Assembly: GCA_016235805.1 (NCBI GenBank)
Contig: JACRIY010000088.1
Coordinates: 1 to 46,468 of the forward strand
Direction: 5' to 3'
DNA from: Rhodocyclales bacterium
GTDB taxonomy: Bacteria; Pseudomonadota; Gammaproteobacteria; Burkholderiales; Rhodocyclaceae
Length of the DNA: 46,468 nucleotides
Below are positions 302 to 42,999 of the stretch, one piece after another. The position numbers and the translations under genes are program-made. The notes beneath the pieces were generated by a model that ran no database searches, was not told the origin of the DNA, and was given only the letters and a program-made list of their open reading frames with translations. Every line of letters begins with the position of its first letter. Position 1 is the first letter of the stretch.

Positions 302-1767
302 TTCATTTCCTCCGGCATGCGGGTATGCCAGTCGGTGGCCTTCTGGTACTGGTGCGCGGCCTGCAACATTTTCGCTTCGCCGAACCAGTTGCCGATGATC
401 TGCAGGCCCACCGGCATATTGCCGGCGCCAAAGCCGCAGGGCAGCGACATGCCCGGCAGGCCGGCGAGGTTGGTGGAGATGGTGTAGATATCGGACAGGT
501 ACATCTGCACCGGGTCCGCGCTCTTGGCGCCAAAGGCGAAGGCCACCGAGGGTGATGTCGGCCCCATGATGACGTCGCAACTCTCGAAGGCCTTTTGAAA
601 GTCGGCGGCGATCAGACGGCGGATCTTCTGTGCCTTGAGGTAGTAGGCGTCGTAATAGCCGTGGGACAGCACATAGGTGCCGATCAGGATGCGGCGCTTG
701 ACCTCGGCGCCGAAGCCTTGGGCGCGCGACTTCGAATACATGTCGTTGAGGTCGCCGTACTCCGGGGCGCGATAGCCGTAGCGTACGCCGTCGAAGCGCG
801 ACAGGTTGCTCGACGCTTCGGCAGGCGCGATCACGTAGTAGGCAGGCACCGACAGGCCGGAATTGGGCAGGCTGACCTCGACCGTGGTGGCGCCCAGCTT
901 GCGGTATTCGGCCAGCGCCGCTTCCACGGCGGCGCGCACGTCGGCATCCATGCCTGCGCCGAAGAACTCCCGCGGCAGGCCGATGCGCAGGCCGGTCAAA
1001 GGCTGCTCCAGGTCGCGGGAATAGTCCTCGGCGGGACGTTCCAGCGAGGTCGAGTCGCGCGGGTCGAAGCCGGCCATGGCCGTGAGCAGCAGCGCACAGT
1101 CCTCCGCGCTCTTGGCCATCGGCCCGGCCTGGTCGAGGCTGGAGGCGAAGGCGATCATGCCGTAGCGCGAGACCGCGCCGTAGGTCGGTTTCAGCCCGGT
1201 CAGGCCGCACAGCGCGGCCGGCTGGCGGATCGAGCCGCCGGTGTCGGTACCGGTCGCGGCCGGCGCCAGGCGGGCGGCAATGGCGGCGGCCGAGCCGCCG
1301 GAGGAGCCACCTGGGACGCGGGCGACGTCCCAGGGGTTCTTCACCGGGCCGAAATACGAGGTTTCGTTGGACGAGCCCATGGCGAACTCGTCCATGTTGA
1401 GCTTGCCCAGGGTCACCATGCCGGCGGCGGCGAGCTTTTCAACCACATGCGCGTCATAGGGTGAAATGAAGTTCTCCAGCATGCGCGAGCCGCAGCTCGT
1501 GCGCCAGCCCCTGGTGCAGAAAATGTCCTTGTGCGCCAATGGGATGCCGGTGAGCGCCGTAGCGCCAGCGCCGACTTTTAATGTTTCGTCCGCGGCACGG
1601 GCCTGGGCCAGTGTCTTGTCGCGATCCAGCGCGATGAAGGCGTTGAGGCCGGGATTCAGCGTTTCGATGCGATCGAGGAACAGGGTCGCCAGTTCCACGG
1701 CGGAGACCTTTTTCGCGGTAAGTGCGGCCCCAAGCTCCTTGAGCGAGGCGTTGATCAGGTCGCTCAT
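298..1767 (-). CDS. gatA: Asp-tRNA(Asn)/Glu-tRNA(Gln) amidotransferase subunit A
   Basis: This 489-residue protein is the glutaminase subunit that supplies ammonia for transamidation of misacylated tRNA. The amidase-signature triad is visible: Lys in PLAHKDIF (about residue 80), the cis-Ser region [14 protein letters not shown] and the nucleophile Ser in [12 protein letters not shown]. The frame is open far upstream, but the start at 1767 ([12 protein letters not shown]) matches the family and overlaps the gatC stop by ATGA. Residues just before the catalytic lysine ([12 protein letters not shown]) are encoded by a copy of the dispersed repeat at 1556-1579; other GatA proteins are variable at this point. 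Function should be normal. Confidence 0.96.
1556..1579 (-). repeat. Dispersed repeat R2, copy 1 (inside gatA)
   Basis: The plus strand reads GCCGTAGCGCCAGCGCCGAC then TTTT. It is one of about ten copies in the window of a sequence with core GTCGGCGCTGGCGGTACGGC (this copy in minus orientation). Here it encodes KVGAGATA of GatA. Confidence 0.75.
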
Positions 1768-2051
1768 TCCACCACCCGCGGCACGAGGTAAAGGCCCGCC
1801 TCGGTTTCCGGCGCCACCGCCTGGAAGTCCGCGCGGCGGTCGGTTTCGGTGACCAGGTCGGGGCGCAGGCGTTGCACCACATCGACGGCGTGGGCCATCG
1901 GCTCGATGCCGGTGGTGTCGACGGCCTGCAACTGCTCGATGAAGCCGAGGATGCCGTTCAACTGGTCGCGGGTGGTTTCGAGTTCCGCGGCGGAAAGTTC
2001 GATGCGCGACAAAAGGGCGATGCGGGAGATGTCTTCCGGGCTGAGGGACAT
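1764..2051 (-). CDS. gatC: Asp-tRNA(Asn)/Glu-tRNA(Gln) amidotransferase subunit C
   Basis: A 95-residue protein of normal family length, starting [19 protein letters not shown], with the conserved GatC elements [24 protein letters not shown] and EPMAHAV. GatC wraps around GatA and GatB and stabilises the heterotrimer. It is the first gene of gatCAB and ends in an ATGA overlap with gatA. The gene diverges from mreB across about 200 nt. Confidence 0.95.
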
Positions 2052-2129
2052 GGCGAGGAGTGGGGTGGATAACGTGGAGCCCGACGGAAACTAGGCGTTT
2101 CACTGCCTGAATCGACGGGCGCGATAGGT

Positions 2130-2135
2130 TATCAT
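2130..2135. promoter_or_regulatory. Possible -10 element in the gatC/mreB divergent spacer
   Basis: The 2052-2253 spacer must hold promoters for the gatCAB operon (minus) and mreB (plus). TATCAT at 2130-2135 reads as a plausible -10 on the plus strand, and the overlapping TATGAT(A) on the minus strand is equally plausible. No good -35 was found on either strand, so direction is not settled. Confidence 0.25.
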
Positions 2136-2253
2136 ATGCGACCTTTGGCTACGGCCGCCGCGCGTGACGCCGGCAAGCGCCAGCGTCAGCCTGCACAGAC
2201 ACTTCGATTTCAGCCCCAGCCTTCCCAAGGCGGGCTTCTACACTGGGACCACG

Positions 2254-41933: not shown

Positions 41934-42227
41934 TCACTCGCCGATCGCGAAAACCCGTTTCACCCGCGCCGCATCGACGCCGCCCACGCGTACCCGCTTG
42001 GCGCGAGAGGACTCGCCGCTGAGCAGGTCGACCGCCGCCTTGGCGACACCGAAGCGGTCGGCAAGGAAACCGATCAGGCAGGCATTTGCCTTGCCATCGA
42101 CCGGCGGCGCGGCGAGGCGGATCTTCAGGGCTTCACCGTGCAGTCCGGCGATCTCGGTCTTCTTCGCGCCGGGCTGGACGTGCAGGCGCAGGATCACGCC
42201 ATCGCCGTCGGCGGCCAGCCAGGTCAC
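41934..42227 (-). CDS. yggU: DUF167 family protein YggU
   Basis: A protein of about 97 residues with the DUF167 pattern LRLHVQPGAKKTEIAGLHG, LKIRLAAPPVDGKANACLIGFLA and GESSRAKRVRV. Function is not established. GTG 42227 (encoding MTWLAADGDG) gives the usual family start; ATG 42284 would add 19 residues encoded partly by the hairpin array. It is last in the yggS-proC-yggT-yggU series. Confidence 0.88.
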   Translation of the reverse strand: MTWLAADGDGVILRLHVQPGAKKTEIAGLHGEALKIRLAAPPVDGKANACLIGFLADRFGVAKAAVDLLSGESSRAKRVRVGGVDAARVKRVFAIGE

Positions 42228-42284
42228 GATTTGCCGCCGGGCCGTCCGCGCTGGCGCGGGATCAGGCTGGACACCCCCTCCCAT

Positions 42285-42404
42285 CCTCCCCCGCCAAGAG
42301 GGGGAGGTGACCAGTCACCCCCGCCCTTGGGGCGGGGGAAAGGGGGGTGGGCCCCATGTATCCCCAAGGGGTGCGCTAGCGCACCCCTTCTCTCGGAGAA
42401 GGGG
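42285..42404. repeat. Array of four GC-rich hairpins between yggT and yggU
   Basis: Stems: CCTCCCCC/GGGGGAGG (42285-42307), CCCCCGCC/GGCGGGGG (42318-42338), a 24-bp perfect palindrome (42366-42389, half AAGGGGTGCGCT), and CCCCTTCTC/GAGAAGGGG (42384-42404). The last two share CCCCTT, so they exclude each other. The second hairpin and its following G-run recur at 37772-37800. Confidence 0.75.
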
Positions 42405-42420
42405 CCGGGGGATAAGCAGT

Positions 42421-42999
42421 TCACGACGTCAGGATCAGCGGCATCACGCTGTGGCGCAGGCCGGCGATCACGAACAGCGCGATCTGCAGCACCAGCAACA
42501 GGGCCAGCGGCGACAGATCCACACCACCGACGGGTGGAATGAATCGGCGAAACGGCCGCAGCAGGGGGCGCGTCAGGGTGTTGAAGACATCGGCCAGCGG
42601 CGCATGGGGATTGACCCAGGAAAACACCGCCGACACCAGCACCGCGCCGAATACCAGGTAGAGCCCGAGCTTGGCCACTTCCAGCAGGGCCAGCGCGGCC
42701 ACCACAAGAGTCGGCGCTGGCGACACGGCGGCCAGCACGCCGCTGAAGCCCAGCACTACGCCCTGGTTGGCCACCTGCCACAGCCAGGCCAGCAGCAGGC
42801 TCGCCATGTCGAGGCCGAACACGCCGGGCACCAGGCGGCGCACCGGGCGCACCATCCAGTCGGTCACGGCGACCACGAATTGTCCCAGCGGATTGCGGAA
42901 GGGCGTGCGCGCCCATTGCATGGCGAAGCGCACCAGCAGCGCCAGCGACAGGAAGCCGCAGATGCTGTCGAGGACGAAGAGGAGGATCTGGACCAGCAT
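42421..42999 (-). CDS. yggT: YggT family membrane protein
   Basis: This 192-residue inner-membrane protein has two YggT repeats with the pattern RFAMQWARTPFRNPLGQFVV...TDWMVRPVRRLVPG and VFSWVNPHAPLADVFNTLTRPLLRPFRRFIPP. A role in osmotic shock or cell division has been proposed for relatives. An R2 copy encodes AVSPAPTLV between the two halves. A 161-nt repeat-filled gap separates it from proC. Confidence 0.92.
   Translation of the reverse strand: MLVQILLFVLDSICGFLSLALLVRFAMQWARTPFRNPLGQFVVAVTDWMVRPVRRLVPGVFGLDMASLLLAWLWQVANQGVVLGFSGVLAAVSPAPTLVVAALALLEVAKLGLYLVFGAVLVSAVFSWVNPHAPLADVFNTLTRPLLRPFRRFIPPVGGVDLSPLALLLVLQIALFVIAGLRHSVMPLILTS
42704..42730 (+). repeat. Dispersed repeat R2, copy 10 (inside yggT)
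   Basis: ACAAGAGTCGGCGCTGGCGA then CACGGCG, two mismatches from the core. Antisense to yggT, encoding [10 protein letters not shown]. Confidence 0.7.

Follow-up and report, generated by a model that had tools for sequence, protein, structure and literature searches.

Why does one short sequence recur along a 46,468-nt stretch of Rhodocyclales bacterium DNA (contig JACRIY010000088.1 of assembly GCA_016235805.1, here called the window), on both strands and mostly inside unrelated genes? We found that it belongs to a 26-bp motif, and that the repeat is real and genome-wide in the genome to which the window belongs (G000). Some process acting on the DNA string itself keeps its sites uniform in spelling and changes nearly all of them together. 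To our knowledge, tags for self-recognition in DNA uptake occur in only two bacterial families, the Neisseriaceae with their DNA uptake sequence (DUS) and the Pasteurellaceae with their uptake signal sequence (USS). By analogy with these, the 26-bp motif probably marks a putative third, independent sequence-selective DNA-uptake system.

A 26-bp motif dispersed over the genome

The motif was profiled in samples of 443 kb from G000 and 400 kb from G002 (a relative with a complete chromosome, presumably the cultured Sulfuritalea hydrogenivorans), and scored in these and in 305 kb from G016. Profiles of 92 copies in the G000 sample and 85 in the G002 sample converged on one sharply bounded 26-position consensus, RARA-GTCGGCGYTGGCG-RYACGGCGA. 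Scores were bimodal. With at least 21 of 26 positions matched, there were 88 places in G000 against none for the reversed motif used as control, and 82 against one in G002, whereas at scores of 20 or less the motif and its control were alike. Extrapolation from the G000 sample gives about 760 near-complete copies per genome, or about one per 5 kb. Neither of the outcomes that the initial annotation had named as overturning its proposal (genome-wide counts no higher than composition and codon use predict, or absence outside the window) was observed: the G000 genome contains 275 exact 13-mer cores, compared with two for the reversed pattern. Motif fragments were the top over-represented 12-mers in both samples (46 against 0.75 and 45 against 0.66 expected from a fifth-order Markov model). 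Exact 13-mers in predicted genes numbered 29 in G000 and 28 in G002, compared with means of 0.85 and 0.63 after synonymous-codon shuffling. In the window, 8 matches to the 20-mer with 0-3 mismatches were found where a dinucleotide null predicts 0.06, and a degenerate 24-mer gave 8 matches with 0-2 mismatches where 0.01 are expected.

Most copies lie in predicted genes (64 of 88 in G000 and 62 of 82 in G002) and use all six reading frames, the commonest readings being VGAGxTA in sense and PAPT in antisense. Genic and intergenic calls were made with a crude, home-made gene finder. Because it misses genes such as rlpA, the intergenic counts (24/88 in G000 and 20/82 in G002, where about 13% of the DNA is non-coding) are upper bounds. 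Both orientations, many coding copies and a non-coding excess, subject to the same upper bound, are thus present as expected of an uptake sequence. Leading and lagging orientations were balanced, with 35/47 in the G002 sample and 46/42 in the G000 sample. Strand bias along the replication axis had been proposed as a check when the repeat was first described, and the complete G002 chromosome showed no polarity (97 plus and 84 minus copies up to 1.71 Mb and 107/113 beyond that point; Fisher p 0.37). Copies in 20 G002 segments of 20 kb each fit a uniform spread (chi-square 18.0, 19 degrees of freedom).

The initial annotation had listed ten copies in the window. Eight of these are intact (20-mer coordinates 1556, 8080, 10956, 14142, 21025, 27121, 36703 and 42710), on both strands as described. 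The one near 34592 is interrupted by 24 bases, and the one at 29061 was rejected as a chance half-match, sharing only the first 10 core bases and having 5 mismatches in 20. Gene types in the following list come from Pfam and agree with the seven unrelated genes given earlier, whereas gene names follow the initial annotation or common usage.

1554..1579, minus strand: motif copy in gatA, sense, reading LKVGAGATA (Pfam amidase)
8078..8103, minus strand: motif copy in rlpA, antisense, reading AVPPAPTF (Pfam lytic transglycolase with SPOR)
10952..10977, plus strand: motif copy in dat, sense, reading KRVGADGTA (Pfam class IV aminotransferase)
14138..14163, plus strand: motif copy in the lplT-plsC fusion gene, antisense (Pfam transporter-acyltransferase fusion)
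21021..21046, plus strand: intergenic motif copy, 16 bp before an open reading frame for a UvrD/Rep-type helicase (21063-23042)
27119..27144, minus strand: motif copy in an HNH-domain gene, sense, reading AKVGAGDTA (Pfam HNH)
34591..34639, minus strand: motif copy interrupted by 24 extra, hairpin-capable bases between its left and right halves
36699..36724, plus strand: motif copy in phrB (DNA photolyase), antisense, reading RRLAGADSC (Pfam photolyase)
42706..42731, plus strand: motif copy in yggT, antisense, reading AAVSPAPTL (Pfam YggT)

The interruption recurs elsewhere. An insert of 24 hairpin-capable bases (core GGGACTTCC) enters at the same motif point in the window (34591-34639, minus strand), in locus L042 (near 14630, minus strand) and in L048 (19753, plus strand). 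L044 and L045 show weaker interrupted forms; L137 and, at another motif point, L054 have related inserts in the other orientation. The interrupted window copy had no Rfam match, and the insert could be either a tiny element that landed in the motif or part of a compound signal. A palindromic repeat distinct from the 26-bp motif, CTCCCCGCGAGGGGAGG, is found at 20922-20938 and 45802-45818 and in degenerate form at 43083-43099, with longer inverted similarities (up to 118 nt) close by; it looks like a REP (repetitive extragenic palindromic) element. The window also carries three adjacent methyl-accepting chemotaxis genes (29172-34291, minus strand) with about 80% DNA likeness over 300 nt.

Taxonomic range, dialects and loss

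Counts of the exact core range from 11 to 402 in 24 further genomes of the genus and from 0 to 15 in 16 genomes from other families of the order. A degenerate core is abundant in seven of the 68 sampled genera of the family (g1, g24, g30, g35, g54, g62 and g80; 297 genomes sampled in all), with 45-480 copies in most genomes, whereas counts in the other 61 genera run from 0 to 19 and in most cases lie close to the reversed control. The highest count among these 61 belongs to G068 (19 against 1 reversed), which may carry traces of the motif. Three genomes of other genera, G068, G101 and G086, contain 7-12 exact 20-mer copies against none reversed, and such traces could reflect either descent or transfer. 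The exact consensus 26-mer was present in at least 116 stretches of named records. Labels among the matches listed were Sulfuritalea, Rugosibacter, Sulfurisoma, Rhodocyclaceae and Rhodocyclales, with a few matches labelled Accumulibacter, Burkholderiaceae, Betaproteobacteria or Gammaproteobacteria; NCBI taxonomy places Sulfuritalea and Rugosibacter in the Sterolibacteriaceae.

Within this range the spelling changes in concert. The variant GTTGGCGCTGGCG, with the core spelled GTTGGCG and thus C replaced by T at one position of the usual GTC, has 279, 317 and 358 exact copies in G001, G015 and G044, compared with 2-9 in each of the 28 remaining genomes among the 31 of the genus. The usual spelling is left 43 times in G001 and 56 times in G015 (G044 is outside that count). 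A midpoint-rooted tree of rodA alone, covering 29 of the 31 genomes (G009 has no RodA match and G044 a weak one), joins G001 and G015 as sisters with 100/100 support, nested among GTC users. In 182 kb of these two genomes T was found in 27 of 30 copies, including 9 of 11 intergenic ones, and it also stands in non-synonymous frames (serine to leucine, arginine to tryptophan, aspartate to asparagine). All four G001 copies in the syntenic region have T where relatives have GTC. Another genus, represented by G053, spells GGYG and GGGAC, while G059 (g30) has 100 degenerate cores and none of the full pattern, and probably uses another dialect with a different right half. Restriction to a clade and concerted dialects, as expected of uptake sequences, are therefore both present.

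In two genomes the motif is nearly or wholly absent inside a motif-rich genus: G016 has 14 degenerate cores within g1, and G285 has none within g35. G016 groups with genomes of 180-265 copies in the rodA tree, with 93/91 support, which is below the program's star threshold. In its 305 kb, 6 places reach 21 of 26 positions compared with about 60 expected at G000 density, a count made without the reversed control. Near-absence inside a motif-rich group suggests that G016 has lost the motif and that its copies have decayed. A dispersed dialect in its place was rejected, as the top 12-mers of the 305-kb sample are locally clustered repeats. G016 and G285 represent natural experiments for finding a receptor.

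Origin of the copies and rival explanations

The initial annotation had proposed aligning orthologous genes of relatives to see whether copies arose by insertion or substitution. Among 20 relatives, tblastn matches to gatA, rlpA, dat and lplT-plsC were obtained in 16, 20, 20 and 12, and the motif was kept in 11, 18, 13 and 12 of these, respectively. Since all 12 matched relatives keep it, lplT-plsC gives no insertion test. The 14 motif-lacking relatives for the other three genes comprise 5 gapless alignments, 4 missing one residue, 1 missing four and 4 with extra residues. None of the 14, a small sample, has lost a motif-sized segment of about 9 residues, so a mobile insert at gatA, rlpA and dat appears disfavoured. 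On these protein alignments, few as they are, the motif appears to have arisen within existing sequence, as expected of an uptake sequence. Solved relatives without the motif have gaps of 0, 1, 6 and 7 residues in gatA, the last being near motif size, and of 1 residue in each of four shown for dat.

At the nucleotide level, 67 copies were aligned to the 20 relatives over a syntenic region spanning at most 20 kb, taking for each site and relative the best alignment reaching at least 50 bp into both flanks. In 665 of the resulting 898 pairs the motif is still recognisable in the partner, in one spelling or the other, with 20 or more of the 26 positions matched. The 233 motif-lacking partners include 32 gapless alignments, 8 with cancelling gaps, 162 missing 1-19 bases, 28 with extra bases and 3 missing 20 or more. 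In Neisseria, new DUS facing gaps in relatives have likewise been reported and attributed to recombination (PMC2397512).

The alternatives offered in the initial annotation fared differently. A tiny mobile or mobilised repeat (REP-like, or like a MITE, a miniature inverted-repeat transposable element) inserted in many genes would explain a dispersed, uniform consensus, the one composite form with an insert, and the 3 of 233 alignments that miss at least 20 bases. However, the copies are mostly genic, the protein comparisons at gatA, rlpA and dat showed no motif-sized loss, and all four shared G001 sites bear the same base change, making such an origin very improbable. A REP element was likewise rejected, as the copies are mostly genic and the 26-mer offers no more than a weak, partial hairpin at one of its ends. 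Harder still to credit is a polar replication, segregation or recombination signal resembling Chi or KOPS (FtsK-orienting polar sequences). High copy number and coding locations would suit it, but the motif is much longer than such signals, and polarity is contradicted by the leading/lagging counts in both samples and by the lack of bias on the complete chromosome; a KOPS-like motif was thus dismissed on an orientation independent of replication. The initial annotation had already thought GC bias alone insufficient, and an origin from base composition, codon use or a widespread peptide has practically no chance. The GC-rich core and the recurrent VGAGxTA and PAPT peptides would agree with it, but it is refuted by dinucleotide, Markov and codon-shuffle nulls that predict less than one copy where 8, 45-46 and 28-29 are seen, by the use of six frames and intergenic sites, and by the recurrence of one base change whether it is silent or alters the amino acid.

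A non-polar chromosome-binding motif is the one earlier alternative that keeps some weight, although we regard it as unlikely. The motif would then be bound by a cytoplasmic protein active in chromosome organisation, segregation or repair, with selection preserving it at hundreds of sites, coding and non-coding alike, and with the Noc, MatP and SlmA sites as functional likenesses. Uniform spread over both strands, a long specific site and shared locations are consistent with this. Against it stand the absence of polarity or regional clustering on the complete chromosome and the near-loss in one genome inside the genus, and a change of dialect would need separate selection at each of several hundred sites. 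Less probable again is a self-tag of an undescribed class, in which the 26-bp sites would be held and switched together by a process other than uptake, for example by a chromosome-binding protein with a recombination-coupled role.

A putative uptake system and its likeness to known systems

We read the motif as an uptake sequence because biased uptake with recombination is the established process known to us to hold and rewrite sites in this way; published tests of DUS and USS gave much the same picture. The first step would be preferential binding of motif-bearing DNA by a receptor at the cell surface, for which a type IV minor pilin is the likeliest candidate. The pilus would then retract, ComEC would bring in one strand, and recombination would swap the resident allele. 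With motif-bearing fragments imported more often than motif-free ones, copies would spread and persist at tolerant sites. A shift in receptor specificity would lead to nearly all copies being rewritten to a new dialect, and its loss to their decay. The link to uptake, offered as speculation in the initial annotation, is largely supported by the abundance of the motif, its tolerance in coding DNA, its use of both strands, clade restriction, single-base dialects and decay, with inverted pairs as the exception.

ComEC was detected in 30 of the 31 genomes of the genus and DprA above the cut-off in 28. The two genomes searched for pilin N-termini (N_methyl matches) had 11 in G002 and 18 in G016, and the window encodes a type II/IV secretion ATPase at 44712-45755 (PilT in the naming of the initial annotation). 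Competence and type IV pilus genes are thus present, as expected of an uptake system, but are not specific to it. Ten of the eleven G002 pilins match G016 pilins well and the eleventh weakly, one G016 gene of the apparent matching cluster having been missed in extraction. FimT was matched in 18 of the 31 genomes at 1e-15 and an orphan pilin in 25 at 1e-10. Full-length FimT matches are 35-75% identical, so FimT is no outstanding receptor candidate.

Several observations weigh against an uptake sequence. The density of about one copy per 5 kb is lower than that of DUS or USS. Frequent close inverted pairs, which are typical of uptake sequences without defining them, were not found: both samples gave 9 neighbour pairs within 500 bp, 6 of them opposed and one 30 bp apart. 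The longest motif-free gap is within random expectation, and the longest motif-free stretches examined are not islands and demonstrate no avoidance of foreign DNA. Foreign islands were rejected for three such stretches, where 17 of 20 genes match Pfam metabolic, envelope, secretion-ATPase and signalling families and 3 are unmatched. The exact motif also occurs in at least 120 stretches of IMG/VR viral contigs. In 80 viral loci (L294-L373) there is a further copy every 15.5 kb or so, a figure that pools host carry-over, provirus flanks and phage copies, and among the matches listed 4 of the 80 have 4-6 motif copies. As to origin, 201 of the 233 motif-lacking nucleotide alignments are gapped, which implies that sites often lie in linkers of varying length, and three miss 27, 28 and 21 bases at the site; some copies may therefore have arisen by insertion.

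The machinery raises objections of its own. DprA is not above the cut-off in G000, G001 and G005, the last of which is 99% complete and has 402 copies. G016 keeps ComEC, DprA and pilin genes despite its near-loss of the motif, so this machinery is not motif-specific. A receptor was not found, FimT and the orphan pilin being too variable among the motif-bearing genomes of the genus. No open PubMed Central paper brings Sulfuritalea and natural transformation together, and competence is thus undocumented for this group. In the same literature no paper joins the term DNA uptake sequence with Rhodocyclaceae or prints the core sequence, and among the titles listed none concerns an uptake sequence from the family. 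If the motif does act in uptake, environmental bacteria would supply a third such system, one that offers a new motif with dialects, a loss in nature and a relative whose chromosome is complete. The reasons why tags evolve (host association, selfish drive, sex or repair) would become directly testable outside mucosal bacteria, and the motif would point to a new sequence-reading minor pilin.

Among known dispersed motifs, REP elements form palindromes between genes, KOPS and Chi are short sequences with polarity, and matS and Noc sites are regional. The 26-bp motif shares with all of these its nature as a dispersed short chromosomal motif, but differs in being mostly genic, non-polar and evenly spread. 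It resembles the Neisseriaceae DUS, whose receptor is ComP, in having hundreds of copies on both strands, tolerance in coding DNA and clade dialects of a few bases, as described in PMC3630211, where DUS dialects are congruent with phylogeny. A further parallel with DUS hosts is the presence of genes for ComEC and type IV pilins. Unlike the DUS, which extends to about 13 nt (PMC12616744), the motif is an unrelated 26-mer, with few inverted pairs and a putative role in uptake; CTG is all that the two share, which is too short to count.

With the Pasteurellaceae USS, for which ComN/PpdA is the proposed receptor, it has in common its length and a division into a strict core and a less constrained A-rich part. 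Many coding copies, a preference for non-coding DNA and no insertion origin are further likenesses to the USS as treated in PMC1626085, and so is the split of USS into two motif types by clade (PMC12616744). The latter paper places the AT-rich parts of USS downstream of the core, whereas the motif has a different sequence and its A-rich part lies upstream. Gaps at sites are commoner here than the 24% given for USS in PMC1626085, in closer relatives and in linkers. Comparison by eye with the USS types and DUS core contexts printed in PMC12616744 gave no match. Being unrelated in sequence, the motif belongs outside both the DUS and the USS motif families, and by analogy it would work like them.

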